A stretch of DNA of 59,986 nt from a virus (IMGVR_UViG_3300022746_000173:1-59986); one strand, 5' to 3'; shown: positions 1,169 to 47,064, counted from the stretch's first letter. Notes: generated from the sequence alone by a model not told the origin. Numbers and translations are program-made.

Positions 1169-2246
1169 AGTAACAGTAACATTACAAAACCCCTTAGACA
1201 AAACAGACACAATCAATTACTTTATTGATGTCAACGACTCTCCAATGGGGCAACGTTGGTTTAGTGCTCTACAGGAAATTGTACAGCGTAACCTATATCT
1301 TGAAAAGAACTTTTGCTTTTTGGGATTCCCTGATAGTCAACGCGATTTAAGATTTATTTGTCAAGAATTGTTTTGGGCAGTAAATGAGATTAACAGTTTC
1401 TTTGACGACTATCACATTGAAGAATTGTACACGCACACAACCTTGCGTGATCCAATAACATTAGACCCTAACCAGGATTTAATGAATAAGTTGCATAATC
1501 ATTTTGAGATCCTGCAAGGCACAGTCGATGGGCTTAGTGACTATTACAAAAGAGCAGACTATACTACAAAGTTTGCTATTAGGCAATTAAACAATCTTTG
1601 TCATGAGGCAGAGAGCTTGATGTTGAGTCAACGCAAAAAGGCAACGCAACCTGAATGGGTCCGGCCCAGTCAAATTACAACATTTTTAAACGCACCCCGA
1701 TATGAATTCCCAACAGATTATAGAACTACATTTGAAGAATCTAGATACGATAGGAAATTCGGGGAAGTATACCTACATTGGACGCAGATTGGCAAGACTC
1801 TTTATGAAGTATATCGAGACGAAAAAGGCGTCGACGTGGACCAGAGTGTGTGTGATGCTATTACTCATCTACGCTACTATAGCGGCGAGTTTGACATCGA
1901 ATGGGCGCAGGATGTATGCTTCAATGGCCCTCATCCATGGCACACAACTGAAATGGCAGGATTCCGAGAATGGCTGGGCAGGAACGGATTCAACGTCAAC
2001 GACCCGCAATATAACTATGGGTACCACCCTGTTGGTCAGGTTGATTTATTGGCGTCTTTTGGAACAACCAACTACGATGACGTTTGGCCAGTTCTATCGA
2101 GGTACCTCGACATACAGGGGATCACTACAGATGATGGGCAGGGGCGTATACTACGCTCCGTATATCCCTACACTTGGACCGACCGAGACTACTACATCCG
2201 ACAAATAGAAAGATTAAAGCCAGGGTATGATCATAGCAGCAGGTGA
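1161..2246 (+). CDS. Conserved-type phage hypothetical protein (361 aa)
   Basis: Soluble protein rich in aromatic residues (many Trp, Tyr, Phe) with no signal peptide or membrane segment and no motif I can name. It overlaps both neighbours (8 bases upstream, 20 bases downstream) in the plus-strand operon between a radical SAM enzyme and three SGNH proteins. The context suggests a role in the same modification pathway; the function is unknown. Confidence 0.75.
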   Translation: MSKVTVTLQNPLDKTDTINYFIDVNDSPMGQRWFSALQEIVQRNLYLEKNFCFLGFPDSQRDLRFICQELFWAVNEINSFFDDYHIEELYTHTTLRDPITLDPNQDLMNKLHNHFEILQGTVDGLSDYYKRADYTTKFAIRQLNNLCHEAESLMLSQRKKATQPEWVRPSQITTFLNAPRYEFPTDYRTTFEESRYDRKFGEVYLHWTQIGKTLYEVYRDEKGVDVDQSVCDAITHLRYYSGEFDIEWAQDVCFNGPHPWHTTEMAGFREWLGRNGFNVNDPQYNYGYHPVGQVDLLASFGTTNYDDVWPVLSRYLDIQGITTDDGQGRILRSVYPYTWTDRDYYIRQIERLKPGYDHSSR

Positions 2247-3000
2247 CAGTTTTGTCTACGGTAGTGAACTAGCAAGTCCTGCCAATACTTTTACAGCATT
2301 GCTGGGTGCAGATGAATGTGTTGCTTGGCCTGGCTATAGCAATGACGCCATTGCACGTACCACAATCGAACGTTGTGAGCAAGGTGGGGTGTCTGGGGCA
2401 ATTGTCAGCTGGACATTCCCTGGTCGTTACGAGTTTAGGTTTGCATACGATACACGGCAGCGCAAAAGTCCGTGGTACAGTATTAACGCATGGACTATAA
2501 AAGACGATGTTACAGATATCGAACGAGAGTTTGTCACTAAAAATAAAGCTATACTGGATACCCAGTTGGAAACCATTAGAACAGCGAAAAAGACTGGTGT
2601 TGTGGATTTCGCAAAAACGTTTTTCACGCACGTGGGTTCTACGGAATATTGGGAAGTGTATTCAAGTCTTAAGGAAATTGTTTACCTCCAAAATTATCTT
2701 AAGGTAAACAACATTCCTTACATGTTTACGTGTGCAGATAATAGCCTGTTATACAATCATACCGTCGATCAAGGTGACAGTGTGATAAACAGTTTGACTA
2801 TGCAGATTGATATGAATAAATGGTTTTGGTTTCCTGCAGGCACAAAGCCAAATGAAACTTGCGACCCAAGAGGTTTTTATCAATGGGCAAAGGAAAATAA
2901 ATACCCTATAGGAACTACACATCCTCTGGAACTAGCACACAGCGATGCTGCCAACCTAATGCAGGAGAAATTCAATGAAATGGTTAAAAAATCTATATAA
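2227..3000 (+). CDS. SGNH/GDSL-like hydrolase-fold protein 1
   Basis: Residues 6-12 (GDSFVYG) form block I of the SGNH hydrolase family with the nucleophile Ser8. A C-terminal T-H-P-L-E-L-A-H block resembles block V, carrying the catalytic His. SGNH proteins remove or transfer acyl (often acetyl) groups on sugars and lipids. It is the first of three consecutive SGNH-like genes. There is no signal peptide, so it acts in the cytoplasm or on the virion. The true substrate is unknown and a non-catalytic role is possible. Confidence 0.7.
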   Translation: MIIAAGDSFVYGSELASPANTFTALLGADECVAWPGYSNDAIARTTIERCEQGGVSGAIVSWTFPGRYEFRFAYDTRQRKSPWYSINAWTIKDDVTDIEREFVTKNKAILDTQLETIRTAKKTGVVDFAKTFFTHVGSTEYWEVYSSLKEIVYLQNYLKVNNIPYMFTCADNSLLYNHTVDQGDSVINSLTMQIDMNKWFWFPAGTKPNETCDPRGFYQWAKENKYPIGTTHPLELAHSDAANLMQEKFNEMVKKSI

Positions 3001-3076
3001 CAGGATTCGTCTAGAAATTCGTTATCGTAAAAAGCTCAAAGAGTTACGTAAGAGAGATCCGTTTATCTACAAATGA
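2975..3076 (+). CDS. Basic 33-residue miniprotein
   Basis: ATG at 2975 preceded by AGGAG seven bases upstream. It encodes 33 residues, extremely basic (runs such as RYRKKLKELRKRD) and ending DPFIYK. It overlaps the end of SGNH 1 by 26 bases, and its TGA overlaps the ATG of SGNH 2 (ATGA), so it looks like a genuinely coupled cistron. Predicted as a single amphipathic basic helix. It may bind nucleic acid or membrane or only couple translation; the function is unknown. Confidence 0.6.
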   Translation: MKWLKNLYNRIRLEIRYRKKLKELRKRDPFIYK

Positions 3077-3726
3077 TATACTGTATTGGTGATAGTTTTA
3101 CTTTTGGCGAAGAATTGCCGGACACAAATTCAGCTTGGCCGATACTGTTAGGCAACCTGCTTGACAGGCCTGTTGTTAATTTAGGCAAACCTGCAACCGG
3201 TAACTATCGCATGGTAAAACGTACAATGGATTCTGTACTAAGCGGAGATGCAGAGTTGGTTGTAATTGGATGGACCGACCCTGCCAGACAAGAGTTTGCA
3301 GATGATATTGGTATCACTGATCTGTGGGCCGGCCGCGAACATAGACGAATGCAAAGTTGCAATGATCATCGCATAAACTTAATCAAGTACATGACTGCGT
3401 ATGACGTCCCGGGCTACTATTACACAAAATGGTTAAGGCAAATAATTCTAGTGCAGAGTTTTTGTAAAGCAAATCAAGTTAGATGCATCATGTTTAACGC
3501 CTGTAGCTCAGAAGATTGGCACAAGTTATACCTAGACAAAAACGCACAGTTGGCTAAACACATAGATTCAACCGACTTTGTGGGATGGCCCTATAGTGGA
3601 TCCGGTATATGGACCCACGGCATGCCAAAAGGACCTAATGGGCACTTTCTAGAAGAAGGGCATGTAGCAGTGGCAAACAAAATCTTTAATCATATTCAAA
3701 ATGAAAGTACTGACACTAGGGTGTAG
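3073..3726 (+). CDS. SGNH/GDSL-like hydrolase-fold protein 2
   Basis: Block I is C-I-G-D-S-F-T-F-G-E with Ser8, and the C-terminus holds GHFLEEGH, matching the Asp/His block in position (E replaces D). It is 217 residues long and paralogous to the following gene (shared FGEEL/YGEEL, the W-T-x-P-x-R pattern near residues 75-85, and a GH-x-L-E-x-GH end). ATGA overlap with the upstream miniprotein. Probably acts on an acylated sugar; substrate unknown. Confidence 0.7.
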   Translation: MIYCIGDSFTFGEELPDTNSAWPILLGNLLDRPVVNLGKPATGNYRMVKRTMDSVLSGDAELVVIGWTDPARQEFADDIGITDLWAGREHRRMQSCNDHRINLIKYMTAYDVPGYYYTKWLRQIILVQSFCKANQVRCIMFNACSSEDWHKLYLDKNAQLAKHIDSTDFVGWPYSGSGIWTHGMPKGPNGHFLEEGHVAVANKIFNHIQNESTDTRV

Positions 3727-4345
3727 TTTTACCTATGGTGAAGAATTGTCTCGTGTTGATAATGCATGGCCCTATTTGTTGGCTAGAACGAACAATTGGA
3801 CACTAACCAACTTGGCCAAAAGTGGCGCAAGTAATGACAGGAACATACGCCTGCTATTTAACGAGTTGCCCAATCAGTACGACCTGATAATATTTGCATG
3901 GACTAATCCGGATAGGTTTGAAGTACCGTATAATGATCGCATAATAGATATCTGTGTTAATCACGATTTAGTTACGCAGTTACCGTGGGTACTAGAATAC
4001 TATGCAAATCACAGTGAGAGGTTTTACAATTACGAAAAGTGGATAAGAACGGTAGTAATGTTACAAAGTCACTTAGAAGCAATTAAGCAACCATATCTAT
4101 TTGTTAGTACATTTGGCATACAAGCCGATTTAAATCAAGATTACTACAACGAGTACATGCCTAAATTAAAATATCTAACCGATCAAGTTAATGATAAATT
4201 TTATATAGACTGGCCAAATCTTGGAATGTTAGATTGGCAAGGAAATTGTCCGTTGGGACCGGGAGGCCACCCGTTAGAAATAGGTCATCAAAGAATAGCA
4301 GAACATATTAATGAACATATTAGGAATATCAGCGGGCTTTCATGA
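3701..4345 (+). CDS. SGNH-like protein 3 with GCS in place of GDS
   Basis: Paralogue of SGNH protein 2 with block I reading L-G-C-S-F-T-Y-G-E-E-L: the Asp before the nucleophile Ser9 is replaced by Cys8, while the end block GGHPLEIGH is kept. It overlaps the previous gene by 26 bases and the next by 35. The Cys replacement is common in divergent SGNH proteins and does not by itself remove activity. Substrate unknown. Confidence 0.65.
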   Translation: MKVLTLGCSFTYGEELSRVDNAWPYLLARTNNWTLTNLAKSGASNDRNIRLLFNELPNQYDLIIFAWTNPDRFEVPYNDRIIDICVNHDLVTQLPWVLEYYANHSERFYNYEKWIRTVVMLQSHLEAIKQPYLFVSTFGIQADLNQDYYNEYMPKLKYLTDQVNDKFYIDWPNLGMLDWQGNCPLGPGGHPLEIGHQRIAEHINEHIRNISGLS

Positions 4346-5795
4346 CGCAGCAGCAACAGTACTGGACAGTGATGGTAACATATTGTTTGCATCGCATAGT
4401 GAACGTTACTCCAAGAAAAAGAGTGACGCTAATTTTTGCAGTCCTCTCATTCGTGAACTCGAAACTTATAACCCAATCGGGACTGTGGCATATTATGAGC
4501 GACCACTTATCAAACAACTACGGCAGCTCTATGCAGGACAAGGGTTTGATTGGAGCAAATTGTCTACAAAGAAGTTGGTTCATGATCAAATTGGTCATGC
4601 AAAGTGGTGGGACCTACAGAATTATAAATCGTACAACCATCATTTATCCCACGCAGCCGCGGGGTTCCAAACGAGTGAATTTGATAGAGCCACAGTAGTT
4701 GTCATTGATGCAGTTGGGGAGTTCGAAACAACCAGCATTTATGGAGCCGAATATGTTAATGGCCGGGCTGTATATAAGAAGTTGTGGCAACAACATTATC
4801 CTCACAGTATTGGCATGTTCTATACTGCAATGACACAGCGAGTAGGACTGAAGCCGCTTGATGAAGAATACATTTTAATGGGCATGGCTGCATACGGTGA
4901 TAAGAACTATGCAAACGTCATGAGTATGAGTTTAGTTGACCATGAGTACGATATAAAGTTTAAACAAAACTTTCATACTGGGGTTGATGCAGACTTCTTG
5001 GATATACTATCGGACTACGATGTTGCTGCTAGCACACAAGAAATAGCAGAGAGATTGATTCTCAATGTTATGACTCGTGCTAAACAATTTAAATGGAGTA
5101 ATAACTTAGTCTACTCGGGCGGATGTGCTCTTAATTGTGCAGTTAATGCAAGAATAGGAAATTATTTTGAAAACATATGGATTATGCCTAATCCCGGTGA
5201 TGCTGGTAGCAGCCTTGGCGCTGCCGCTTTGGCTCATGGGGGTAGAATTAACTGGACTAACGCTTATCTCGGGTATTGTATTCCTGGGCCTTATCCTGTT
5301 AATGACATACTTGATGAGTTGCTTACTAAGCAAATTGTGGGAGTGGCATCCGGACATGCCGAGTTTGGCCCAAGAGCGTTGGGGAACCGTAGTCTCTTGG
5401 GCGATCCAAGAGGGATACATATTAAGGAAAAAGTAAATGAAATTAAACGTAGACAACAATTCAGACCCTTTGCGCCAGTTATTTTGGAAGAACTGGCTGA
5501 TACTTACTTTGATATGCCTCGTGGTTGGAGTAATAGCAGGTATATGCAGTCAGTCGCTCGTTGTAGGGTGCCTGACCTATTTCCTGCTATCGTTCATCAC
5601 GACGGAACTAGTCGTGTTCAGACTGTGCCGAAAGATGGATCAGGTATCAGAGATTTATTGGAACGCTGGTTTGTATTAACCGATTGCCCTATGCTACTCA
5701 ACACTAGCCTAAACATCCGCGGAGAACCAATGGTAAACGATCGAGCAGATGCAGATAGATTTGAGCAGTTATACGGAGTAAAGGTCTGTTCCTAA
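4311..5795 (+). CDS. NodU/CmcH-family carbamoyltransferase
   Basis: Full-length-looking 494-residue member of the carbamoyltransferase family that transfers a carbamoyl group from carbamoyl phosphate to a sugar or antibiotic hydroxyl via carbamoyl-adenylate. Visible hallmarks: an N-terminal kinase-like start (NILGISAGFHDAA), the metal-site H-H-L-S-H-A at 110-115, the nucleotide-binding Y-S-G-G-C-A-L-N, and the C-terminal EFGPRALGNRS block of the YrdC-like domain. It overlaps the SGNH gene before it and abuts the APS-kinase-like gene after it. The probable target is a phage- or host-made glycan (inference). Confidence 0.9.
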   Translation: MNILGISAGFHDAAATVLDSDGNILFASHSERYSKKKSDANFCSPLIRELETYNPIGTVAYYERPLIKQLRQLYAGQGFDWSKLSTKKLVHDQIGHAKWWDLQNYKSYNHHLSHAAAGFQTSEFDRATVVVIDAVGEFETTSIYGAEYVNGRAVYKKLWQQHYPHSIGMFYTAMTQRVGLKPLDEEYILMGMAAYGDKNYANVMSMSLVDHEYDIKFKQNFHTGVDADFLDILSDYDVAASTQEIAERLILNVMTRAKQFKWSNNLVYSGGCALNCAVNARIGNYFENIWIMPNPGDAGSSLGAAALAHGGRINWTNAYLGYCIPGPYPVNDILDELLTKQIVGVASGHAEFGPRALGNRSLLGDPRGIHIKEKVNEIKRRQQFRPFAPVILEELADTYFDMPRGWSNSRYMQSVARCRVPDLFPAIVHHDGTSRVQTVPKDGSGIRDLLERWFVLTDCPMLLNTSLNIRGEPMVNDRADADRFEQLYGVKVCS

Positions 5796-6229
5796 TGCAA
5801 CGCATTCTCATAATGGGACTACCGGGCGCCGGAAAGACTACACTGGCAAACACATTGCGAGACAAGTTAATAGTCGCGGACAAAAAAGTTGTGCACTTAA
5901 ATGCAGATGAAGTACGCAGGGAGTACGACGATTGGGATTTTAGTCTAGAAGGAAGAATTAGACAAAGCAAGCGTATGCATTCTTTGTCAACAATATTGGA
6001 ATGCGATTACTGTATTGCTGACTTTGTTGCACCATTGCCTGAAATGCGTACAAACTTTGAGCCACACTGGATAATATTTGTTGACACAATTGATTCTAGT
6101 AGATACGATGATACTAACAAGATGTTTGTTGCACCCGAGTGGGCGGATATTCGTGTAACCACGCAAGATGCCGATTATTGGAGCAACATGATCATTAAAA
6201 CTATTTTATACACAGGCAATGGAGACTAA
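5795..6229 (+). CDS. APS-kinase-like P-loop protein
   Basis: Walker A GLPGAGKTT at residues 8-16, followed by an L-N-A-D-E-V-R-R ... D-W-D-F-S ... G-R-I-R-Q-S-K-R-M block, the substrate signature of adenylyl-sulfate kinase (CysC). It is about 144 residues against roughly 200 for bacterial enzymes, so the C-terminal part is short. If active it would make PAPS, the sulfate donor used by sulfotransferases, three of which are encoded elsewhere in the window. Its start shares one base with the end of the carbamoyltransferase gene. A kinase for another small molecule cannot be excluded. Confidence 0.65.
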   Translation: MQRILIMGLPGAGKTTLANTLRDKLIVADKKVVHLNADEVRREYDDWDFSLEGRIRQSKRMHSLSTILECDYCIADFVAPLPEMRTNFEPHWIIFVDTIDSSRYDDTNKMFVAPEWADIRVTTQDADYWSNMIIKTILYTGNGD

Positions 6230-6422
6230 TAAACGTAGTCTAGCAAAAACCGTTAGCTGGAGAATCACCGGAAGTGGTGCTACGTTTGCTATTTCTTATT
6301 TGATCATCGGAGACTTAAATGTATCGGGCACCATTGCTGCTATACAGTTAACTTTTAATACTCTGCTTTATTTTATCCACGAACGTATTTGGAATCGTGT
6401 TCGTTGGGGGCAAGAGGAATAA
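6219..6422 (+). CDS. DUF2061 two-helix membrane protein
   Basis: 67 residues matching the DUF2061 pattern: N-terminal K-R-S-L-A-K-T-V-S-W-R-I-T-G, two hydrophobic helices, then H-E-R-I-W-N-R-V-R-W-G at the end. In bacteria this domain is often found beside or fused to sulfate-activation genes; here it overlaps the APS-kinase-like gene by 11 bases. Its role is not known. The 3' end overlaps the converging glycosyltransferase gene by 50 bases. Confidence 0.75.
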   Translation: METNKRSLAKTVSWRITGSGATFAISYLIIGDLNVSGTIAAIQLTFNTLLYFIHERIWNRVRWGQEE

Positions 6423-7611
6423 ACTGCCGATATTGGTTAATAGTAAATGGAATGTCGATATCTCTACGGTAGTACTTGGATATATCAGTTAAAGATTGTT
6501 TTAACGTGTTCCATTCCTTGGCAATAAACGCAGGGCTATTAAACAATTGATAATTGTGTTCTAGTATTGTCTGCATATCTAATAACATCTCTTGTTGCTG
6601 CTGATTACTCATACTGCTGATGTTGTTGAGTATTTTAACAACAGCGTCCATTCGTTCAATTGGATCCTGAATAGAGTCGTAACTCTCGTCCCAATAATCG
6701 CCGAATGTTTTAAATCCGTAATTACGCAAGTACTTGAGATTGTCTGCACAACCAACTAATACAAATGGCATCTTGAGTACGATAGGTTTAAATATCTTTT
6801 CTGTCAGGTGCGTCTTTGTTTGCCAGTAACAAGTTTCAGTTACAACAAACACAAAACTTTCCATAAGCTGAGGCAATGGACTCAGCGCCATACTTTGATT
6901 TGGTATATGTTTTTGATCTGCAAAGTCTATACGCAAGGGATTGGGTTGCTGTGCCAATGTAATGTTATGAATAGTGTCGGCGCACAACTCACTTGATATT
7001 AACCTGTCGTCTCTTGCTTTGGTTAAGTTTTCGGCAGATGGTAAATGATTGTCCGGGCACACATCGCTATAACTAACATGCCCGTGTTCTAGTATTCCTT
7101 GTTTAAACAGTTTACTAACAAATATACTGCGGTATACACGCTCATTACTGGTCAGTCTATTAAATGTAATGTAGCTTTTGTTTAGAGTTCTTTGTGCAGG
7201 TTCTACTAGGTGTGGTAAGTATTGATGGCCCCTATACCAATCTGCTGCTGCAAATATATGAAAGAAATAATCGATGCTGGCAAATTTGTAATGGTCGCAT
7301 ATACGATCCTTTTCGACACTGTCCTTTTCGGTATTAACTAACACATAAGGGCCTTGTGTAGTGGACACAATGTAATCAAACAAATTTTTATTGTAATTAA
7401 AGTTTAATGGTTCTTGATCGTAGAAAATAAACACAGGGCCACGAGACTCAGGTGGGTTACGCATATCCGGCGGATCAGAATCGTCTCTTAAGGTCTCTAT
7501 ATTTTCTGGTTGTGTTGATCCAAATGGGTGTAGATATATTACGGTGGGATCTGTTATAATAGTTTGTAGGTGTTGGTAGATATTTTCGTAGTGATTGGCA
7601 ATATTATACAT
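6373..7611 (-). CDS. Glycosyltransferase-like protein (GT10/exostosin-type C-terminal)
   Basis: 412 residues. The C-terminal half holds the pattern T-E-T-C-Y-W ... F-L/T-E-K-I-F-K-P-I ... P-F-V-L-V-G ... L-R-N-Y-G-F-K-T-F-G-D-Y-W-D-E-S-Y-D, typical of the donor-binding region of fucosyltransferase-like GT-B proteins found in phage glycan clusters. No signal peptide. It converges with DUF2061, and its ATG overlaps head-to-head with the ATG of the next plus-strand gene. No ribosome-binding site is evident, so a slightly later start is possible. Confidence 0.6.
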   Translation of the reverse strand: MYNIANHYENIYQHLQTIITDPTVIYLHPFGSTQPENIETLRDDSDPPDMRNPPESRGPVFIFYDQEPLNFNYNKNLFDYIVSTTQGPYVLVNTEKDSVEKDRICDHYKFASIDYFFHIFAAADWYRGHQYLPHLVEPAQRTLNKSYITFNRLTSNERVYRSIFVSKLFKQGILEHGHVSYSDVCPDNHLPSAENLTKARDDRLISSELCADTIHNITLAQQPNPLRIDFADQKHIPNQSMALSPLPQLMESFVFVVTETCYWQTKTHLTEKIFKPIVLKMPFVLVGCADNLKYLRNYGFKTFGDYWDESYDSIQDPIERMDAVVKILNNISSMSNQQQQEMLLDMQTILEHNYQLFNSPAFIAKEWNTLKQSLTDISKYYRRDIDIPFTINQYRQFIPLAPNEHDSKYVRG

Positions 7612-9862: not shown

Positions 9863-9883
9863 AGACTTTAAGCGTAAAAGTCT
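9863..9883 (-). terminator. Rho-independent terminator candidate between converging genes
   Basis: Perfect 7-bp stem AGACTTT/AAAGTCT with a 7-base loop. Read on the minus strand it is followed by ATTTTATTTT, so it would end the minus-strand aminotransferase transcript. It overlaps the last codons of that gene. The plus-strand side has only a weak T-run. Confidence 0.55.
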
Positions 9884-10971
9884 TTAACTGTTTGCACTAC
9901 GTACTCGACTTCGCTGTCTGTTAGTTCGGGGTGTATAGGTAAACTCAGACATTCTCTGCTGAATTGGTCGCTGCCTGCTCTAAGATTTGCGCCAGAATAG
10001 TTATATGCAACACCCAAACTATCCAGTGGATGCGGATAGTGAATTTTTGTTTCTATTCTGTTTGCAGTTAAATGACTTTGTAACTGATTACGATACTGTT
10101 GTACCCGAATAACAAATTTGTGCCATGCATGCTCTACGTCCGGCCCTGGACCTAATACATCAACATAGGTACTCAACTGTTGTGTATAGTATTTTGCAAT
10201 AGCATCGCGACGATCTTGCCATGCATCAAAGTATTGTAGTTTTACAATCATCTGTGCACAGTCTGATTCGCTCATTTTACTATTGGTACCTGGGTACATG
10301 TGTACGCTTGATTTGCCATTGTCCCTGAGATCCTTAACGGCTTCTGCAAGTTCAAAATCGTCAGTTAGAACCATGCCACCGCTACCATAGTTAGGCAAGT
10401 TCTTGGTTGGATCAAAACTCAGTACACTTACATACCCTAGCTTGCCACTGGGAATGCCTTTGTATTTTGCCCCGAAACTTTGTGCAGCATCTTCTACAAT
10501 GCGGGGACTCTGTCCCCAGAATTCAGTCATAACACGCAGCTTATCGTAATCGATTATGTTGCCGAACAAGTTAACATACATTACAGCGGCAATATTTGTA
10601 TCGTTAAAACTAAAGTTTACACTATTTAAATCCATTATGCCGCCATAATCAACATCAACAAACGTGGGCTCATGCTCGGTTAGTAAAACGCTGTTTAACG
10701 TGGCTGCAAAGCTCATAGTAGGTATGAGCACCCGCCCGGCGGGAAAAAGCGTTTGTAGGGCAAATACAAGCCCTTGTGTGCATGAATTAACGGATATTGC
10801 GTATGCTCTATCGCAGCGATCGGCGATTAACTGTTCAAATTGCTGGGTGTATGGCCCATCTAATACTTTACCACTAGTGTATACTTTATCAGTAACATGT
10901 AGTATTTCTTCACGCAGGTTTGCGTATTGGCGCTTGACACCAAAGAATGGAATTAGATTCGGGTTTTCCAA
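9868..10971 (-). CDS. DegT/DnrJ/EryC1/StrS-family sugar aminotransferase
   Basis: 367 residues, the normal family length. The PLP region shows E-D-A-A-Q-S-F-G-A at 160-168 and the Schiff-base lysine in S-F-D-P-T-K-N (Lys190), followed by G-S-G-G-M. Family members transaminate nucleotide-linked keto-sugars to amino-sugars. It overlaps the upstream epimerase gene by 19 bases, so the two probably act in sequence on a nucleotide sugar. Confidence 0.9.
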   Translation of the reverse strand: MENPNLIPFFGVKRQYANLREEILHVTDKVYTSGKVLDGPYTQQFEQLIADRCDRAYAISVNSCTQGLVFALQTLFPAGRVLIPTMSFAATLNSVLLTEHEPTFVDVDYGGIMDLNSVNFSFNDTNIAAVMYVNLFGNIIDYDKLRVMTEFWGQSPRIVEDAAQSFGAKYKGIPSGKLGYVSVLSFDPTKNLPNYGSGGMVLTDDFELAEAVKDLRDNGKSSVHMYPGTNSKMSESDCAQMIVKLQYFDAWQDRRDAIAKYYTQQLSTYVDVLGPGPDVEHAWHKFVIRVQQYRNQLQSHLTANRIETKIHYPHPLDSLGVAYNYSGANLRAGSDQFSRECLSLPIHPELTDSEVEYVVQTVKDFYA

Positions 10972-11921
10972 AATGGGCTCGATTTAAACCAGTCGTGATA
11001 TTTTTGGAAGCCTTCTTCTACGTCAACTTTGGGATCAAACCCAAAGTCTCTACGGGCAGCATCAATATTTAATGCACCACGGCTCGGAAAGTCAGCATCC
11101 TTATCGCGAACTTCTACGTTACCTTTACCTGCAATCTTGATAGCGAGACTAGCAGCTTGGAGCAGGCTGCAACTGTGGCTCTTAGTAATGTTGTAGGTGC
11201 CATTAACTGCACGATCGCTAGTTGCCGCAGCAGCGATACCCGCAGCAGCATCTTCGACGTAGGTAAAGTCTAGTGTTTCGTTTGCGCCGTTTACCTTAAG
11301 AGTTTCTCCGCGCATAGCTGAGAGCATAAATTTGGAAACGACTCGATCTTCCACGTCATATTCACCATATACAGCAGAGGGGCGTATAATAACGTGATCA
11401 AAAATGCCACGACGAGTATAGTCTTTAACAAGGTGTTCTCCCATTAGTTTCATGATGCCATATTGGCCTTGCGGTTTACAGTTATAGTCTTCGGTAACAT
11501 CATTTTCAAAGTCACCGTATACCATGCTTGAGCTGATATAAACGAACTTAGGTATTTTATAGTTTTTTGTAATTTCCAGCAAGTTAACCAAGGCAGTACC
11601 CATTACTTCACTGCCCCATACTGGGTTAGCACTTACGACCTTTTGGCGAGGAAAGCTGGCCAAGTGAATAACTGCATCGCAACTGTGTGCAAAGTTTCTA
11701 AAGAAGTTGTTTACTGCTTCGTGGTCACGCAGATCGATATGATGGCCGCCTGAACGCATACGCTTGGTACGCTCGCTATATAGATACTTGAGTTCGTCTG
11801 CATTTACAAACCCATAATCGGTTACGATATCTAATACAATGCATTCGTGTCCTTGTGCTTGCAGTTGACGTACCACATTATGTCCAATAAAGCCAGCACC
11901 GCCTGTTACGATAAATCTCAT
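10953..11921 (-). CDS. NAD-dependent sugar epimerase/dehydratase (extended SDR)
   Basis: 322 residues with the Rossmann motif G-G-A-G-F-I-G at 7-13 and the catalytic Y-x-x-x-K at Tyr154/Lys158, preceded by I-S-S-S-M-V-Y-G. It would epimerise or dehydrate a nucleotide sugar. The start codon overlaps the HNH stop (ATGA), but an AAGGAG eight bases upstream of the ATG gives it its own ribosome-binding site, consistent with the HNH gene being a later insertion. Operon with the DegT aminotransferase. Confidence 0.88.
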   Translation of the reverse strand: MRFIVTGGAGFIGHNVVRQLQAQGHECIVLDIVTDYGFVNADELKYLYSERTKRMRSGGHHIDLRDHEAVNNFFRNFAHSCDAVIHLASFPRQKVVSANPVWGSEVMGTALVNLLEITKNYKIPKFVYISSSMVYGDFENDVTEDYNCKPQGQYGIMKLMGEHLVKDYTRRGIFDHVIIRPSAVYGEYDVEDRVVSKFMLSAMRGETLKVNGANETLDFTYVEDAAAGIAAAATSDRAVNGTYNITKSHSCSLLQAASLAIKIAGKGNVEVRDKDADFPSRGALNIDAARRDFGFDPKVDVEEGFQKYHDWFKSSPFWKTRI

Positions 11922-29555: not shown

Positions 29556-29746
29556 TACTTCTTTCTAAACACGTTAACAATGCCCATGGCAATGAACAGT
29601 GTAGATTCGATCAACCAAGACCAGCTGGTAGTTAATACAGTAACCACAATACTTATAAACATAGCTGCCATGTATATAACAACTGGCGCAAAGGCAATTA
29701 TTAATGCCCAATTCACTATTTGTTGCAAATCAACTGTGAAGGTCAT
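29555..29746 (-). CDS. Small membrane protein (63 aa)
   Basis: Start at 29746 because its ATG overlaps the TGA of queE (ATGA). Two hydrophobic helices and a basic end (V-F-R-K-K). Co-translated with queE; no functional prediction. Confidence 0.6.
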   Translation of the reverse strand: MTFTVDLQQIVNWALIIAFAPVVIYMAAMFISIVVTVLTTSWSWLIESTLFIAMGIVNVFRKK

Positions 29747-30600: not shown

Positions 30601-31244
30601 GCAAATAGGTCCTCGTTCCATTCACGGTGACCTTCACGGTACGCCATGTTACTCATTGTTTCACGCACTTCAACACGATAGCACCACAGGCGTTCTGCTT
30701 CATGTGGGCCCCACATCTCTGGAATGTAAACGCCGTTTACATATTTGTAAAGCATATCGCTAAGTGCTTCGCAACCCAATGCAGGCAAAACTACAATCTT
30801 GGCCATGTTTTTTTCTTGCAGCAGTTTAAATGTTTCCATTTCTGGGTCATCTTGTGCAACAATCAACGTATGGTCGAATTGGTCTTCCAATGTTTTCTTT
30901 AGTTCCTTGAGTCCGCCGTAGTCAGCGGCCCAGTTACGCACGTCTAGGTCATTGGTTCCAAAGTAGAACTTCATGCTAAACGCATATCCATGGATTAGAT
31001 TACAATGACTGTCTGCACGCCACTGGCGGTATGCGACTGGAAAGGCATTGTGATATTCTTTTGTACTTGTATATTGATATGAAATTGCTGGACGATAATT
31101 AAGATAACCTTCGTATTCTTTTCGCATTGCGGCCTCTACTTCTTCAGTAGCATCTATGCCTATGTTTTTTAAACCTTCGACCGCTTCGGTTGAGATTTCT
31201 ACGGTGTTTTTCTTTCGCCAGTCTTCGTATGAGTATTTTGACAT
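30597..31244 (-). CDS. queD: 6-carboxytetrahydropterin synthase (QueD-like, T-fold)
   Basis: 215 residues, longer than the roughly 120-residue bacterial enzyme because of an N-terminal extension. The core shows H-C-N-L-I-H-G-Y at 80-87, corresponding to C-x3-H-G-H of QueD (second His replaced by Tyr), then F-D-H-T-L-I-V and a late H-E-A-E-R-L-W-C-Y-R-V-E-V. It converts dihydroneopterin triphosphate to carboxytetrahydropterin. The AGGAG of this gene is part of a hairpin. Confidence 0.85.
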   Translation of the reverse strand: MSKYSYEDWRKKNTVEISTEAVEGLKNIGIDATEEVEAAMRKEYEGYLNYRPAISYQYTSTKEYHNAFPVAYRQWRADSHCNLIHGYAFSMKFYFGTNDLDVRNWAADYGGLKELKKTLEDQFDHTLIVAQDDPEMETFKLLQEKNMAKIVVLPALGCEALSDMLYKYVNGVYIPEMWGPHEAERLWCYRVEVRETMSNMAYREGHREWNEDLFA

Positions 31245-34048: not shown

Positions 34049-34657
34049 TTAATCCTTAATAGTAATGTCTCGTAAGTCCGGGTAACCAACTGAAACAGGC
34101 TTTGGTTTAAGTTCCTTAATGCCGTTAAGCAAGGCAAGACCTTGTACTGCTTCTTCTGGTGTAGGCTTATAGTGATACCCAATTGTAAATGTCTTTTGAG
34201 TCTCCCATGGACTAATGGTTAAATCTCTGCCATCGTAGCGCATACGGATCAACGACTCGTATGCTTGTTTGTCATCTAACAGTATAGCACCACCACGGCC
34301 TATATGTAAAGGTTTAGTATGACCAAAACTCAAACACTGCATCATTCCCGTCCGATACATGTTTTCTTCTAGCCGTCTAGCACTGTCCCAAATACGTGTA
34401 CCTTCAAACTTGTATTCGCCGATCCATTGTTGTCTGTGTGCCAATGTATCTGGGTAATAGTCGTATTTGATTCCCAACTTGTGCATGGTCATTGGAATGC
34501 TTAGGTAGGTATAAGGTGTAAAGGTACACTGTGTAATCTTATCATGTCGTAAACATAATTCAATTGCATGTGTGCAGCAGTCAGTCATAACTGCATATGG
34601 TGCACCTGTGAACTCTGCTAGTGCAAGTTCAAATCTTTTAATATCGTCGAATGTCAT
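34049..34657 (-). CDS. Short DegT-like aminotransferase (202 aa)
   Basis: Resembles the DegT/StrS fold in M-T-D-C-C-T-H-A-I-E-L-C-L-R and the PLP-lysine region L-S-F-G-H-T-K-P-L-H-I-G-R-G-G-A-I-L-L-D-D. It is only about half the normal length because the C-terminal domain is missing. It could be a stand-alone PLP domain, a complementing fragment or a decayed gene. Overlaps the oxygenase gene by 20 bases. Confidence 0.6.
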   Translation of the reverse strand: MTFDDIKRFELALAEFTGAPYAVMTDCCTHAIELCLRHDKITQCTFTPYTYLSIPMTMHKLGIKYDYYPDTLAHRQQWIGEYKFEGTRIWDSARRLEENMYRTGMMQCLSFGHTKPLHIGRGGAILLDDKQAYESLIRMRYDGRDLTISPWETQKTFTIGYHYKPTPEEAVQGLALLNGIKELKPKPVSVGYPDLRDITIKD

Positions 34658-35303
34658 TGTGTAACCTGTTAATCATTTCTTGAGTTTTGTCTGTTTTAAT
34701 TCCTGTTATTTGGAATGTGACTCTTGGGTGGTATCCAGCATTGGCGGTGGAATGCGGCATGTTTTGCCAGTCAAACGTAATAACATCTCCTGCACGCCAT
34801 TGGCTCCAATTGTAGTTGCCAAACTGATAGAACTGTCCCATTTGCCAATCAGTGAGTGCAATAAAAATACGCATAACACTATCAGGTTGGTCCGGAGCCC
34901 ATTTGTCTAACTTGTCTATATGTAAGTTCCATAGCTCTCCGGGCAGTTGAACATGTATGCGATTCATACAGTCTTTGAGACCAAATTCATCACTGAGTTG
35001 CTGTAACGAATCAGGAATGTCCCAGTTTAGATGTGTAATGATCATGTCTGTTGGAATGCCCGCACGTTCTAGGTCTAATTCTTCGGCAGCAAGATCACTA
35101 GTGGGCCCGGCAAGGTCTTTGCCTTTGTAACCACGTGTAGCCCATGTTGCTGGTTTAGCATTAGCAACAATATCGCGTAGGTCTTTATTCCATGTTGTAG
35201 CAACACACCCTAGATGATGTATTGCATAAGATGATATATCTGTTACTGTTGGATCAAAGTGGTAGTTGCTTTTTTCCTGGGCCAATTCCCAATTACTTTT
35301 CAT
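34638..35303 (-). CDS. 2-oxoglutarate/Fe(II)-dependent oxygenase-like protein
   Basis: 221 residues. L-H-I-D-K-L-D (H-x-D iron ligands) followed by F-D-W-Q-N-M-P-H-S-T-A-N-A-G (third His) and H-P-R-V-T-F-Q (Arg for 2-oxoglutarate) fit the double-stranded beta-helix oxygenases, as in aspartyl hydroxylase-like proteins. The probable substrate is a sugar, lipid or protein side chain in the surrounding glycan region. ATGA junction with the sulfotransferase-like gene. Confidence 0.65.
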   Translation of the reverse strand: MKSNWELAQEKSNYHFDPTVTDISSYAIHHLGCVATTWNKDLRDIVANAKPATWATRGYKGKDLAGPTSDLAAEELDLERAGIPTDMIITHLNWDIPDSLQQLSDEFGLKDCMNRIHVQLPGELWNLHIDKLDKWAPDQPDSVMRIFIALTDWQMGQFYQFGNYNWSQWRAGDVITFDWQNMPHSTANAGYHPRVTFQITGIKTDKTQEMINRLHNDIRRY

Positions 35304-35923
35304 ATTACTGTTACTCTAATATCAGACTGTCCGTAATCCTGATAGTATTCGGAACTGGGCAGCTGAATGTTTAGTATATTGCACAGCATTTGATTTGTCA
35401 AAGGTATTTTCCCCATATGTCGCAACATAGAGTTGGTGATGCCTTGGTTCTGTTCTTTAATACGAATAGCCATGGTTTTTAAATCTACGTAGTGTTGATC
35501 GTACTTTGGATACGTGATATCAAAGTGTCCACACTTTACCCACCAACCAAGGCAAGCATCGTCCGGCCTGTGTACCAACACAACAGGGCACTCGGGCCAT
35601 TGTTCTTTGATGTATTCGATATTATGTTGGTGACTGAATATATGGCTCTTGATTATTCGTATACCCGATCCGCTAAATGGAGCATCGAATAGTTCTTCTG
35701 CTTTTCTTTTGGTCAGCACACTTAGGCTCTGTGGCAAGGAAAATTCCATACCTGGATCAAAGTATGCACCTAGGTGCATTAAATCCATTGTGCCACTGGC
35801 ATCGTGATAGTAAAGCCTATCCTGTTTGTAGTCACTTTGGTCTATACTGGGACTAAAGTAAATGTTCTTAACTACACTACTCCACTTAGATCCAGGCGCA
35901 CCTGCCACAAATATGTATTTCAC
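35300..35923 (-). CDS. Sulfotransferase-like P-loop protein A
   Basis: 207 residues. 5'-PSB-loop-like F-V-A-G-A-P-G-S-K-W-S at the N-terminus and the 3'-phosphate-binding region R-I-I-K-S-H ... V-V-L-V-H-R-P-D-D. It is clearly paralogous to the gene at 37682-38266 (shared I-K-S-H, R-P-D-[DE], G-W-W-[VC]-K-[CA]-G-x-F-D, Y-P-x-Y). Uses PAPS if active; see the APS-kinase-like protein at 5795. ATGA junctions with both neighbours. Confidence 0.65.
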   Translation of the reverse strand: MKYIFVAGAPGSKWSSVVKNIYFSPSIDQSDYKQDRLYYHDASGTMDLMHLGAYFDPGMEFSLPQSLSVLTKRKAEELFDAPFSGSGIRIIKSHIFSHQHNIEYIKEQWPECPVVLVHRPDDACLGWWVKCGHFDITYPKYDQHYVDLKTMAIRIKEQNQGITNSMLRHMGKIPLTNQMLCNILNIQLPSSEYYQDYGQSDIRVTVI

Positions 35924-36965: not shown

Positions 36966-37685
36966 ATGAATACTAAAATTTTTGCACTTCTTACTAAAAA
37001 TTTGCAAGATGCTTTTAACCTGCCCAAATACCAACACATAGAAATAGACGAAACTACTGTAGTGGACAAACTACCCTGGACTCCTGCACGATATCGCAAA
37101 TTCAAAGATGCGGTAGAAGCAGAATTAAGTCTACCCTGTGACTATGTAGGAACACTGAAAGAGATTACACATGACCTTAGCGAACGATATATCGACCGTT
37201 TCTTTGGGGAGATTTGGAAGCCTAGAACAAATGACTATGATTACACAGGTTGGCAACTTGCTGACGAGATTAACGCACTTAACCCAAGAAGTGTACTTGA
37301 TGTTGGATGTGGATACCACCCATTTAAAGGCCGTATTAACAATCTTGTGGGAATCGATCCTTACAATAATTGCTCAGATTACATGGTTGACATACTCGAC
37401 TATGTTGGACAGCACGATGTTATTATTGCTTTGGGGTCAATCAACTTCAACAGCCGAGACGAAATAGAATCTCGATTTAAGAAATGTGTTGATATATTAG
37501 ACAAGGGCGGAAAGTTTTATCTACGTGCCAATCCTGGCATTACACACAAGACTGGCCCTTATGTAGACATCTTCAATTGGACTTTTGAAGTGGTCAAGGA
37601 GTTTGGAGACAAATACAATCTTCAGTTAGAAACTTTTAAGAAAGATGCCAATGATAGATTGTACTTTGTATACCAAAAGAATTAA
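36966..37685 (+). CDS. SAM-dependent methyltransferase (class I)
   Basis: Start taken at 36966, giving 239 residues. Motif I is S-V-L-D-V-G-C-G-Y-H-P-F, motif II-like V-G-I-D-P-Y, and D-V-I-I-A-L-G-S-I-N and L-D-K-G-G-K-F-Y-L-R follow. It is the only plus-strand gene between 10 and 60 kb and converges with the sulfotransferase-like gene. Probable small-molecule or sugar methylation; substrate unknown. Confidence 0.75.
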   Translation: MNTKIFALLTKNLQDAFNLPKYQHIEIDETTVVDKLPWTPARYRKFKDAVEAELSLPCDYVGTLKEITHDLSERYIDRFFGEIWKPRTNDYDYTGWQLADEINALNPRSVLDVGCGYHPFKGRINNLVGIDPYNNCSDYMVDILDYVGQHDVIIALGSINFNSRDEIESRFKKCVDILDKGGKFYLRANPGITHKTGPYVDIFNWTFEVVKEFGDKYNLQLETFKKDANDRLYFVYQKN

Positions 37686-38266
37686 CGCACGATGGTAACT
37701 AGAATATCTCTGTTTTCTAGTTCTACTGTGGGACGATACCCAAAGTTATTGTAGAACCAATCAGAGTTGACGTGGCTCCATTGGGCTTGATGTCTATAGG
37801 CAAAGTCCATAATTGCAGCATTTTGTTGACGAATCTCTTTACGCATGTTTGCTTCGTCAATGTAGGCTTTGTAGTTTGGATAGTCCATGTCAAACCCACC
37901 AGCTTTGCACCACCATTCGTAGCTGGTTTCGTCTGGACGGAAAACCAGCAATATCCAATCATTGGGGTACTTTTCTTTAATTGCATCAAGATGGTACGAC
38001 CACTCGTGGCTTTTAATAAGCCGTGTATCGTTTGTGTGTTGCCAAATTGGATCAATGTATGCATCATCTAATATAGCATCAAACTCAAGACCGCGGCCAA
38101 AGTAATTTCCTTTGTTGCCACCTAATGGCCCGCCTACCCGATCGGGTGTGCGGTCTGTGGTGTTAAAGCCCGGAATCATTTCGATGTTTTGTGCAAGGCG
38201 GCTCCATCGGCTACCTGGCACTCCTGTAAAAAATATTCTACTTGGAAGTGTTATTTTGTGTACCAT
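37682..38266 (-). CDS. Sulfotransferase-like P-loop protein B
   Basis: 194 residues, paralogue of protein A: F-F-T-G-V-P-G-S-R-W-S at the start, R-L-I-K-S-H-E-W-S, then L-V-F-R-P-D-E and W-W-C-K-A-G-G-F-D. The two copies flank the Bug receptor and methyltransferase. Overlaps galE by 16 bases. Confidence 0.62.
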   Translation of the reverse strand: MVHKITLPSRIFFTGVPGSRWSRLAQNIEMIPGFNTTDRTPDRVGGPLGGNKGNYFGRGLEFDAILDDAYIDPIWQHTNDTRLIKSHEWSYHLDAIKEKYPNDWILLVFRPDETSYEWWCKAGGFDMDYPNYKAYIDEANMRKEIRQQNAAIMDFAYRHQAQWSHVNSDWFYNNFGYRPTVELENRDILVTIVR

Positions 38267-39234
38267 TTATATGCTGTATCTATAATAGTTTCTATGTCGC
38301 TGTATTTTGGAGTCCACTGAAGCCATTGTTGTGCATCAGTTGCATCAGCTATAAGTGTATCAGGGTCGCCTGCTCTGTTTGGCCCAAAGTTTACAAACGG
38401 TAACTGGTATTTGTCAGCAACGTAGGTAACGATGGTGTAATTGCTAGTCCCTTTGTTAGTGCCTAGGTTAAACACATGGCAATCTGCTACTGCTCCGGAT
38501 GCTGCTACTAATAAGTACTCTGCACCTTTGACATGGGCCTGTGCGATGTCCCATACGTGTACATAATCGCGCACACAGGTTCCGTCTGCGGTATTGTATG
38601 CTGATCCGTTTATTGTAACCGCGCGATTAGCAATACTGGCTTCTAACACACGAGCTACAATGTGTGTAGCACCAGGTTCTTGCCCTAGGTCAAAGTTAAA
38701 GGGTTCTGCACCTGCTGCATTAAAGTATCTAAAACAAATACTGTTGATCTTATATGCTAAGGCATAATCATGCAGTATATCTTCAACCATGGACTTTGTA
38801 TTACCGTATGGACTGATAGGACGTTTTGGGTGTCCTTCCTTTAACGGCAATGCATCTGGATCAGGGTCACCGTATACGCTGGCGCTAGAACTAAACATAA
38901 TCATTGGTGGACGATCCATGTCCTTGATCACATTGAGCATTTTAATTGTCTTACTGACATTGTTTTCATAATAGTCAGCGGGATCAATTACACTTGGTCC
39001 CACTAGGCTAGTGCCTGCACAATGCACAATAAAATCCGGTTGCAAGTCAATTATTGTTGACAATGATTCATCACTTGCAAAGTCATTGATAAAGAATCCA
39101 TCAATGTCTTTTAATGTATGCTCACGTAGTACACGATCAATAATGAATACTTTATCGCCGTTTTGTTTAAACGCTCGCGCGACATGGCTACCAATGTAGC
39201 CACATCCACCAGTAACGATGATTGTCTTAGACAT
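38251..39234 (-). CDS. galE: UDP-glucose 4-epimerase
   Basis: 327 residues with G-G-C-G-Y-I-G-S-H-V at the start, F-S-S-S-A-S-V-Y-G, the catalytic S-P-Y-G-N-T-K, and R-Y-F-N-A-A-G-A and C-V-R-D-Y-V-H-V typical of GalE. Interconverts UDP-glucose and UDP-galactose (or N-acetyl forms), supplying the glycosyltransferases in the window. Shares one base with the upstream gene (TAATG). Confidence 0.93.
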   Translation of the reverse strand: MSKTIIVTGGCGYIGSHVARAFKQNGDKVFIIDRVLREHTLKDIDGFFINDFASDESLSTIIDLQPDFIVHCAGTSLVGPSVIDPADYYENNVSKTIKMLNVIKDMDRPPMIMFSSSASVYGDPDPDALPLKEGHPKRPISPYGNTKSMVEDILHDYALAYKINSICFRYFNAAGAEPFNFDLGQEPGATHIVARVLEASIANRAVTINGSAYNTADGTCVRDYVHVWDIAQAHVKGAEYLLVAASGAVADCHVFNLGTNKGTSNYTIVTYVADKYQLPFVNFGPNRAGDPDTLIADATDAQQWLQWTPKYSDIETIIDTAYKWYTK

Positions 39235-43092: not shown

Positions 43093-44728
43093 TTTCTAAA
43101 TCCTCTAATTTGTTTTCGTTTAAGTCTGGTTCTACGTATTCGAACAAGTGATTAAACAAAGTGTTTGCATTGGTTGTTTTTTCGCCTTTAAAACCTCGGG
43201 TACCAACAATTTGATTCCAATAACCGGTCTTTCTAGCATACTTTGGATCATCGATGATATCTAGTGCAGCTTGCTTAGTGGGTGCAGCAAAGATACGTTC
43301 GACAATGTCTTCAAAGTACTCGTAATCGGCACCATCGTGTCGCATCATTGCTGGATGCTCGCCTGCGTCAAAACGTCTGTTGGCTTCTTGTACAGCAGTC
43401 AAGTGCATCCATACATTGTGACCCATTAGTAGTGCATAGCTAAAACTATCCCACGATGTTGCACCTTCTTTACCTATCTTATTTAGGTCGCCGGGCTTGT
43501 AAACACAAATATCTTTTATTGTCCACATATCACTAAGTGGACTTTCTTCCCAGCTGGGATAGATACCGTCTTGTACTACTCCTTGACTCCACTTGCGTGT
43601 GTCTGTTGAGTATTTTTTATCGTCGGCGCTTGGGGCCATTCGGTAGCTCCATTTGCTGTCGTGCTCGAAGACGTTTTGGAAATAGACCTGCCCATTCGCA
43701 GTCGCCAAAAACGGACTAGCACAATCAAAGCTAATAGTAAAAGAAGGATTGACATATTTTCTCACTGCTCGTTGAATAACTGTGAGTAGAACTGCCCACT
43801 CCAGTTTGCTTGTACCCAAGAAGTGCATCCAATCATGTTTACCTTCTTGTAGTAAGTTGTCGTAACGTAATGCCACTAGTCGTTTTAATACCAGCTGCAC
43901 GTCACACATGTTTTGACCTCCCATGGCCCATCCATCAAAGTGAGTGTCTGGGTATACAGTTGGGTCACAAAACTCTTTCATTTCTTGATACCAGTCTTCG
44001 GCTGACGTATGATTGTCACCTTGTAACACGTTTAAGAACTTGGCTCCGCCATTCTTGACTCCTTTACGATGCTTCATAAAGTATAGGTTGTTGTACTTGG
44101 TTGCTGCAACTGCTTCTTCTAGGGTGCTGATACCACAAGCCTTGCTGGCCTTTTTGTCATGTATAACCCAAGTTGGAATATCAAGAATCATTCCATAGTC
44201 AGCAATACCGTCTAGCCATTTAAGTACGCCATCACGTTTCTTTTGCGCGGCATCTAACAACTTCTGATAATCTGCCAATGGATCAACTACAACAGTTTTG
44301 TTTTTAGCATTGGTTACAGTATGAGTGCCCTGTGCTGTTAACTGTGCAATCTTGTCTTGTACTTCTTTACTGTTTGGATCGCGCCAATCGCCTTCCCAAA
44401 GACCCTTTGCAATCTGGAACCCGCCCGAATCGCCGAGAATAAACGTATCAGGATCTCTATTCCGGACCATATCTTCTGACCAATCTTGCTTTGTAAGGTC
44501 AAGGTTTGCATGACCACCTGAATAGAGACTCCACTTATAAGGGAATAAAGCCTTAGTGGCATTGAGCCAGTTAAGCTGCTCCATATCCGTAAGACCGTTA
44601 GGAAATCTTTTCGGATCGACATAATGTTCGTTCCTTTGTTTACCTACGAATGTAGCATAGAACCCACTGATAGCGGGCAAGAATACTGCGTAATCTTTTT
44701 GTTTATTTGTTAAATTATCTTGGCTCAT
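43073..44728 (-). CDS. dpdA: DpdA-like 7-deazaguanine DNA transglycosylase (TGT family)
   Basis: 551 residues with the TGT hallmarks: G-D-S-G-G-F-Q at 99-105 (Asp100), N-V-L-Q-G near 233-237, G-W-A-M-G-G-Q at 266-272, H-F-L-G-T-S-K, and I-S-F-D-C-A-S-P with Asp335 as the probable nucleophile. It exchanges guanine in DNA for a 7-deazaguanine base such as preQ0. FolE, QueD and QueE in the window make the precursor. No archaeal-type or tRNA-specific domain is seen, which favours the DNA enzyme. Confidence 0.85.
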   Translation of the reverse strand: MSQDNLTNKQKDYAVFLPAISGFYATFVGKQRNEHYVDPKRFPNGLTDMEQLNWLNATKALFPYKWSLYSGGHANLDLTKQDWSEDMVRNRDPDTFILGDSGGFQIAKGLWEGDWRDPNSKEVQDKIAQLTAQGTHTVTNAKNKTVVVDPLADYQKLLDAAQKKRDGVLKWLDGIADYGMILDIPTWVIHDKKASKACGISTLEEAVAATKYNNLYFMKHRKGVKNGGAKFLNVLQGDNHTSAEDWYQEMKEFCDPTVYPDTHFDGWAMGGQNMCDVQLVLKRLVALRYDNLLQEGKHDWMHFLGTSKLEWAVLLTVIQRAVRKYVNPSFTISFDCASPFLATANGQVYFQNVFEHDSKWSYRMAPSADDKKYSTDTRKWSQGVVQDGIYPSWEESPLSDMWTIKDICVYKPGDLNKIGKEGATSWDSFSYALLMGHNVWMHLTAVQEANRRFDAGEHPAMMRHDGADYEYFEDIVERIFAAPTKQAALDIIDDPKYARKTGYWNQIVGTRGFKGEKTTNANTLFNHLFEYVEPDLNENKLEDLENDQTRT

Positions 44729-45338
44729 AATAATAGTTTGCTGATTTAATTAAAGTGTAATCAGCGTAATATCTGTCGATGATCTTAGCACGTAACATAG
44801 GATCTTGTTCGATCTTAAAGCGCATGAAATTAGATAGCTTGTTGGTATCGTAATTGTCTTCGCTGGCGTTACCGACTATAGGTTTATTTAGACCTAGTTG
44901 ATATCCTAAGAAACTTTCTAGATTCATACCCAGCTCGTGATTGAGTTTAAAGTATGTAATTTTTCTATCACCTAGCTGGTTAACAAATTTTACTTGTTCA
45001 GTTGTGTGGTCGTCAAATACAATTTGATCGAATATTAAGCGTTCAGTTAGGCTATTGTAGTCCTCACGAAAGTGATCACTGCCATAACCTTCACCTAATA
45101 ACCAGCTGGCTGCATATGTAGCAAAGCCGCTGATCCAACGCTCTACTGGGTCACGTAGTACAACTATACATTCCTTGATATCAGGGCTGTATACATCATT
45201 GTGGCGCCAATCACTGTCTACAAATAAATTAGTTAGATAGGTACTAGCATTCTTAGGAATGTTTAGGTAAAAAATCCCAGTAGGGGAAAGTAATCCACTA
45301 CCGGGTCTATACCCCCTAGATACTAAGTTATCTAACAT
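44715..45338 (-). CDS. Sulfotransferase family 2-like protein
   Basis: 207 residues with the PAPS-binding L-N-I-P-K-N-A-S-T-Y-L (5'-PSB loop) and V-L-R-D-P-V-E-R-W-I-S-G-F (3'-PB region), the carbohydrate sulfotransferase pattern. TAATG junction with the clamp gene. It would transfer sulfate to a glycan if PAPS is present. Confidence 0.8.
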   Translation of the reverse strand: MLDNLVSRGYRPGSGLLSPTGIFYLNIPKNASTYLTNLFVDSDWRHNDVYSPDIKECIVVLRDPVERWISGFATYAASWLLGEGYGSDHFREDYNSLTERLIFDQIVFDDHTTEQVKFVNQLGDRKITYFKLNHELGMNLESFLGYQLGLNKPIVGNASEDNYDTNKLSNFMRFKIEQDPMLRAKIIDRYYADYTLIKSANYYYEPR

Positions 45339-46069: not shown

Positions 46070-46119
46070 AGTTTCTCCATTAATAAGTTAGTATACAGGT
46101 TTGTATTTAGGTCTGTCAA

Positions 46120-47061: not shown

Positions 47062-47064
47062 AAT

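Follow-up and report, generated by a model that had tools for sequence, protein, structure and literature searches.

The gene pair at 5795–6422 of an IMG/VR virus record (IMGVR_UViG_3300022746_000173:1-59986; 59,986 bases, all of which were analysed and are here called the window) encodes a P-loop kinase resembling adenosine 5'-phosphosulfate (APS) kinases and a small membrane protein of family DUF2061. The pair probably activates sulfate for a phage sulfation module, in which the kinase makes 3'-phosphoadenosine 5'-phosphosulfate (PAPS) and phage sulfotransferases use it on an acceptor that the phage itself builds or alters. Many large relatives of this virus, from lakes and seas, likewise carry such a kinase along with enzymes that probably transfer sulfate. 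APS would come from the host (in related phages from a nucleotidyltransferase (NTase), through an ATP-sulfurylase-like step), the kinase would phosphorylate it to PAPS, and the sulfotransferase-like protein ST3, which has good motifs, and less surely ST1 and ST2 would transfer the sulfuryl group to the acceptor. A coupling of local PAPS production to sulfotransferases had been proposed in an earlier reading of the sequence alone (the sequence-only reading). It stands as the best account of the kinase fold, the substrate-site residues, the adjacency to sulfotransferases, the presence of DUF2061 in bacterial sulfate operons and the failure to find a PAPS reductase, with canonical PAPS motifs being confined to ST3. 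In what follows, L numbers denote loci and G numbers larger viral records.

The kinase and DUF2061

Both genes were located exactly where the sequence-only reading had placed them. The kinase matched Pfam APS_kinase (PF01583) at 40.3 bits (cut-off 21.1, E 4e-10, 87 of 152 positions covered) and PHROG 10255, named 'kinase', at E 7e-27. When a profile of the kinase family was compared with PDB sequences, APS kinases ranked first (best E 2e-12). Structural comparison was made with an AlphaFold model of a relative fused to an NTase domain (L063; pLDDT 93) rather than of the window protein. An APS kinase domain was present in all top 30 structure entries, with APS kinases scoring Z 19.0–15.8, followed by gluconate kinases at 15.3. 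The best match, 7yq0 (Z 19.0), superposed over 143 residues of the kinase domain with a root-mean-square deviation of 2.2 Å, in agreement with the P-loop kinase fold of APS kinases (CysC; the human PAPSS1 domain and the Penicillium and Archaeoglobus enzymes). The phage family was aligned to four CysC sequences from bacteria, of which two are nearly the same. It retains the P-loop, DxxR, F-S-x-x-x-R, F-x-x-P and a later Arg, and the two positions taken to form the adenine sandwich are aromatic. In the window kinase the corresponding residues are intact (P-loop G8–T15, D38, R41, F49, R54, R60, F77, P80 and R85). With 144 amino acids against about 175–200 in APS kinases, and about 20% identity to them, the window protein is, by alignment, APS-kinase-like but strongly diverged, and falls short of an established CysC.

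The downstream protein matched Pfam PF09834 (DUF2061) over its full length (1–52) at 72 bits (cut-off 23.1), and its gene overlaps that of the kinase by 11 nt. Scans of viral contigs, with the window's virus counted in, gave 50 kinase loci and 34 DUF2061 loci; the window kinase was 65–38% identical to its relatives there, and a kinase was present in 28 of the 33 other viral DUF2061 loci, mostly directly upstream of DUF2061. Among the 80 closest cellular DUF2061 loci, a non-random sample mainly from Flavobacteriia in which CysC, CysD and CysN were named by motifs and by profiles built from these same loci rather than by Pfam, CysD and/or CysN lay within 6 kb in 64. DUF2061, a small membrane protein, accompanies enzymes of sulfate activation in both phages and bacteria. 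In one Bacteroidetes locus (L350, 6001–6843) it is naturally fused to an entire CysC, and genes for CysD, CysN and a DegT-like aminotransferase come next; the fusion is a good lead for DUF2061 function. DUF2061 itself turned up in four papers, with a single mention in each.

Sulfotransferase-like genes beside the kinase family and in the window

Linkage was assessed at 43 distinct kinase loci that had been found through the kinase or DUF2061 only, with close loci merged by kinase identity only. Seven of the 154 same-strand genes within two positions of the kinase were sulfotransferase-like. The base rate was put at about 0.45%, an approximate figure of our own derived from phage records that totalled about 7.6 Mb, gave about 40 hits and had partly been chosen for sulfotransferases. 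Against this rate the binomial probability was about 7e-6; at a base rate of 1% it was 0.001. The adjacent genes were of the Sulfotransfer_2 type (L003, L007, L022/L023), the Sulfotransfer_3/1 type (L038, L062, L075) and the ST1 family (L077), and at least four sulfotransferase subfamilies adjoined the kinase module. Pfam confirmed all but that of L077, with 36–38 bits for the Sulfotransfer_2 type (cut-off 22) and 34–61 bits for the Sulfotransfer_3 type (cut-off 27). The clearest cases included overlapping genes in the order sulfotransferase–kinase–NTase (L037–L041), the order kinase–NTase–sulfotransferase (L022/L023/L049), and L003/L004 and L007; in L079/L080 a sulfotransferase gene overlaps that of DUF2061. 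Because the kinase family adjoins several unrelated sulfotransferase types in other viruses, the sulfation reading gains independent support. Co-occurrence was also found at the level of whole records: the kinase was present in 18 of 20 large records selected through ST1 or ST3 only, and at least one sulfotransferase-like protein in 15 of 18 records selected through the kinase, DUF2061 or DNA polymerase.

In the window itself, the three sulfotransferase-like genes were all found at the positions given by the sequence-only reading, which are the ends of minus-strand genes, and canonical PAPS motifs were present in ST3 only. ST3 exceeded the cut-off of Pfam Sulfotransfer_2 slightly (23.5 vs. 22 bits) and has both PAPS motifs of the Sulfotransfer_2 and Sulfotransfer_3 enzymes. 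Its family keeps IPKN and R-x-P-x-x-R, with K29, R62, P64 and R67 conserved in at least 90% of 23 aligned rows. ST1 and ST2 themselves had no match in Pfam or PHROG, and in seven records members of the ST1 family matched Sulfotransfer_3 below threshold, the best at E 3e-6. The AlphaFold model of ST1 (pLDDT 95.4) retrieved tyrosylprotein sulfotransferase TPST1 as best match in a VIA search (Z 11.3), by a modest margin over adenylate kinases (9.3), while Foldseek returned a mixture of kinases and sulfotransferases (best E 0.013; none in PDB under 0.001). ST1 and ST2 share the fold, K-x-H and Arg positions with the Sulfotransfer_2/3 enzymes, from which they differ in the 5' loop and at the usual Ser position. 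Judged from the model of ST1, both are likely to have a sulfotransferase fold, with uncertain use of PAPS. The sequence-only reading had named 5'-PSB residues not arranged for PAPS as a refutation. ST3 has the canonical motifs; in ST1 and ST2 the usual 5' loop, P-[RK]-S-G-T, reads GxPGS[K/R]W and the 3' R-x7-S is altered, so that for these two the refutation applies in part.

ST3 occupies a strongly conserved slot (window 42589–49728, minus strand) with the order polymerase, 46120, 45338, ST3, 43073. At related loci the 45338 neighbour was present in 51 of 51 cases and the 43073 gene adjoined directly in 46 of 51. A functional tie between ST3 and the 43073 gene was considered from this adjacency and rejected, as G038 has the slot but no ST3 in it; in G037 it holds an ST3 of 28% identity. 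The genes on either side of ST1 recur in most relatives, namely 34638–35303 (no assignment), 35920–36888 (with the look of a TctC-type periplasmic binding protein) and 36924–37685 (methyltransferase-like by eye). A TctC-like protein of the transporter-receptor type is an odd member of the ST1 phage cluster.

Supply of APS and competing explanations

Pathway enzymes were searched for in 39 phage records, namely the window and 38 related records, which may be fragments. The sequence-only reading had suggested checking the rest of the genome for an ATP sulfurylase; none was found by PF01747 in any of the 39, and most relatives instead have an NMNAT-like partner, which is absent from the window. 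Since the window has neither this NTase partner nor a canonical ATP sulfurylase that could be found, the host, or else a gene lying beyond the fragment, probably supplies its APS.

Many relatives are proteins of about 260 amino acids in which the kinase is followed by a C-terminal HxGH nucleotidyltransferase (GRWQPWHxGH ... GR[DG]VGY ... ISATxIR), and in most non-fused relatives a separate NTase gene follows the kinase. PHROG 10255 corresponds to this fusion, and the separate NTase of L393 matched its C-terminal half; a search for the NTase half within the window gave no match. The half comprises about 110 amino acids, and its matches, among models and structures alike, were to NMNAT and not to ATP sulfurylase. 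Some of these phages, or close relatives of them, also encode a full-length protein of the NMNAT/Nudix type (for example G015, the source of L396, whose best NCBIfam score of 383 bits lies slightly below the cut-off, and G022, the source of L395), and the small NTase domain therefore likely has another job. The simplest guess from gene-fusion logic is that it would make APS, the substrate of the kinase. Bifunctional PAPS synthases (human PAPSS1, Aquifex 2gks) likewise join a kinase to an HxGH-class adenylyltransferase, and the phage fusions have the kinase N-terminal, which is the animal order; their adenylyltransferase half differs in being short, NMNAT-like and outside PF01747. A literature search for PAPS synthases in phage genomes gave no match. 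We tentatively suggest that the fusion could be a compact PAPS synthase in which an NMNAT-type adenylyltransferase took over the ATP-sulfurylase step, powering a sulfation module that moves among large phages, of which the window would hold a reduced form running on host APS; we consider this possible rather than probable.

The three nearest relatives (G021–G023) have kept the operon, with 79–84% identity to the window for most of the flanking proteins, 81–82% for the carbamoyltransferase where complete, and 88% for the DNA polymerases of G021 and G022. The kinase is only 44–45% and DUF2061 55–57% identical, with DUF2061 coming first, and among the three an NTase gene lies between DUF2061 and the kinase in G023 only. 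The function seems to have been kept in place while the kinase and DUF2061 genes were exchanged, and the NTase seems dispensable, which fits its absence from the window.

Several observations weigh against the sulfation reading. The lid segment KGLYKKARxGEI is deleted throughout the phage kinase family and R-[YF]-x-D-T-N occupies the place of the CysC FTGI, for which reasons the protein is named APS-kinase-like and not CysC. Its scores of 34–42 bits remain far from the NCBIfam apsK cut-offs (127–139), and the PSTK model scores almost as high as apsK (35 bits). In ST1 and ST2, Trp replaces the usual 3'-phosphate-binding Ser, although the Arg is kept. No phosphatase for 3'-phosphoadenosine 5'-phosphate (Inositol_P family) was found in the 39 records, and no sulfotransferase was seen in some records with the kinase (G001, G012, G038). 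The kinase of the window lies 29 kb from the nearest sulfotransferase, and shared ancestry contributes to co-occurrence, as four of four large relatives chosen by polB carry the kinase with or without ST1/ST3. The sulfation reading also does not explain a group of isolated phages that encode the kinase–NTase fusion (L085–L087; Casjensviridae phages and Stenotrophomonas phage DLP6): in the Casjensviridae the fusion lies near NADAR and MazG-like genes and near genes for a DNA methyltransferase or topoisomerase, and the stretches shown have no sulfotransferase annotated.

This Casjensviridae setting, the resemblance of the partner domain to NMNAT rather than to ATP sulfurylase, and the PSTK-type and gluconate kinases that come next in score would all suit a kinase acting on another substrate, such as a nucleoside, a sugar, a tRNA or cytidine diphosphoramidate, whose product the NMNAT-like domain would adenylylate or cytidylylate, for example in NAD salvage or a cofactor pathway. 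Cytidine diphosphoramidate is reportedly the substrate of the Campylobacter kinase Cj1415. We regard such a role as unlikely, since the fold search ranked every APS kinase above other kinases, the gene is linked to sulfotransferases and DUF2061, and in G015 and G022 the small domain is not simply the NMNAT of the phage.

Phage cysC has been published as a gene of assimilatory sulfate reduction, in freshwater phages with larger genomes (PMC10914622), and these auxiliary metabolic genes are probably of the same kind as the present one. On that account phage CysC raises PAPS for reduction to sulfite and cysteine, and a bacterial DUF2061 locus (L348) with CysH-like and reductase-like genes, named by eye, beside CysD/CysN speaks for it. 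The present kinases recur in the context of sulfotransferases instead, and the PAPS_reduct family (PAPS reductase/CysH, CysD) was found in 0 of the 39 phage records, compared with 14 of 14 control genomes. Because some records may be incomplete and a reductase is also available from the host, this lowers the standing of the reduction account without removing it, and we consider it quite improbable for this locus. That the kinase/DUF2061 pair and the sulfotransferases are independent cargo of large phages, linked by hitch-hiking, has in its favour the lineage effect, the 29 kb distance and the location of ST3 in its own core-gene slot beside polB, from which it is missing in G038, but is hardly credible given that at least four sulfotransferase subfamilies independently adjoin the module, in some cases through gene overlap, and that DUF2061 has its separate tie to bacterial sulfate activation.

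Gene surroundings, possible acceptors and significance

The sequence-only reading had placed the pair among sugar genes, and a carbamoyltransferase, DegT aminotransferases, NAD-dependent epimerases and one weak glycosyltransferase match were indeed found in the window (Table 1). The stop codon of the carbamoyltransferase and the start of the kinase have one base in common (5795). A 754-amino-acid protein (7595–9859, plus strand) with a W-rich repeat unit FDFSWxPxPW, 79–81% identical in close relatives, is possibly related to glycosyltransferases. Compared directly with the DNA of isolated phages, the locus gave only a 163-base match.

Table 1. Positions in the window of the gene pair, the sulfotransferase-like genes and neighbouring or sugar-related genes.
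Feature	Coordinates	Strand	Basis
Operon gene, 83–84% identical in close relatives	2227..3000	+	no Pfam/PHROG family match
SGNH/DUF6071-like protein	3073..3726	+	weak Pfam DUF6071 and GDSL matches
SGNH/DUF6071-like protein	3701..4345	+	weak Pfam DUF6071 and GDSL matches
NodU/NolO-like O-carbamoyltransferase	4311..5795	+	Pfam Carbam_trans_N/C 131 + 152 bits; PHROG 1601 E 4e-93
APS-kinase-like P-loop kinase, 144 amino acids, single domain without adenylyltransferase half	5795..6229	+	Pfam APS_kinase, PHROG 10255
Kinase P-loop codons (GLPGAGKT)	5816..5839	+	sequence; G-L-P-G-x-G-K invariant across fused relatives
DUF2061 small membrane protein, 67 amino acids	6219..6422	+	Pfam DUF2061 72 bits
DegT/DnrJ sugar aminotransferase, possible acceptor-building gene	9868..10971	-	Pfam 256 bits
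NAD-dependent sugar epimerase/dehydratase	10953..11921	-	Pfam Epimerase 145 bits
DegT-type aminotransferase, short form (202 amino acids), in the gene run of ST1	34049..34657	-	Pfam DegT 50.7 bits
ST1, divergent sulfotransferase-fold protein; loop GAPGSKWS, 'KSH', 'HRPDDACLGWW'	35300..35923	-	AlphaFold, fold search, alignment
ST2, ST1 paralogue; loop GVPGSRWS	37682..38266	-	iterated hidden Markov model search, 186 bits to ST1 profile; alignment
NAD-dependent sugar epimerase adjoining ST2	38251..39234	-	Pfam Epimerase 149 bits
ST3, sulfotransferase, canonical PAPS motifs (5' IPKNAST, 3' RDPVERWISG); overlaps 43073–44728	44715..45338	-	Pfam Sulfotransfer_2

Since sugar aminotransferases, epimerases and a carbamoyltransferase are nearby, a glycan is a plausible acceptor. 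Blocking of receptors or defences by sulfated phage or host glycans, as raised in the sequence-only reading, would be a hypothetical consequence. The acceptor could instead be a nucleic acid, given the location of ST3 beside replication genes and a possible base-exchange enzyme. A possible 7-deazaguanine set is encoded on the minus strand (29743–30621, 30597–31244, 33343–34035 and 43073–44728); Pfam identified GTP cyclohydrolase I and a QueD-like PTPS among its candidates, with a QueE-like radical SAM protein below threshold. The 551-amino-acid protein of 43073–44728 has a DSGGFQ motif and looks TGT/DpdA-like by eye only, and no match to it was found in Pfam, PHROGs, NCBIfam or PDB sequences. 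The set suggests that the phage DNA is modified.

The gene content also recalls the decoration of rhizobial Nod factors by NodPQ, NodH and NodU, NodPQ being equivalent to CysD/CysNC. Sulfate activation, a sulfotransferase, an O-carbamoyltransferase and a methyltransferase occur in both, and the likeness is one of analogy only. Unlike the Nod-factor system, the window has no recognised chitin-oligosaccharide synthase, and the place of NodPQ is taken by a small kinase, either alone or accompanied by an NMNAT-like enzyme.

If the NMNAT-like half of the fused relatives makes APS, ATP sulfurylase activity would have arisen a separate time in the HxGH nucleotidyltransferase superfamily. More generally, the results suggest that phage 'cysC' genes, usually read as serving sulfur nutrition, often serve decoration. 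If the genes do form one sulfation module, the reading of these frequent genes in metagenomes would change, and the module would provide a short list of directly assayable proteins for a chemical decoration that is seldom considered in phages.
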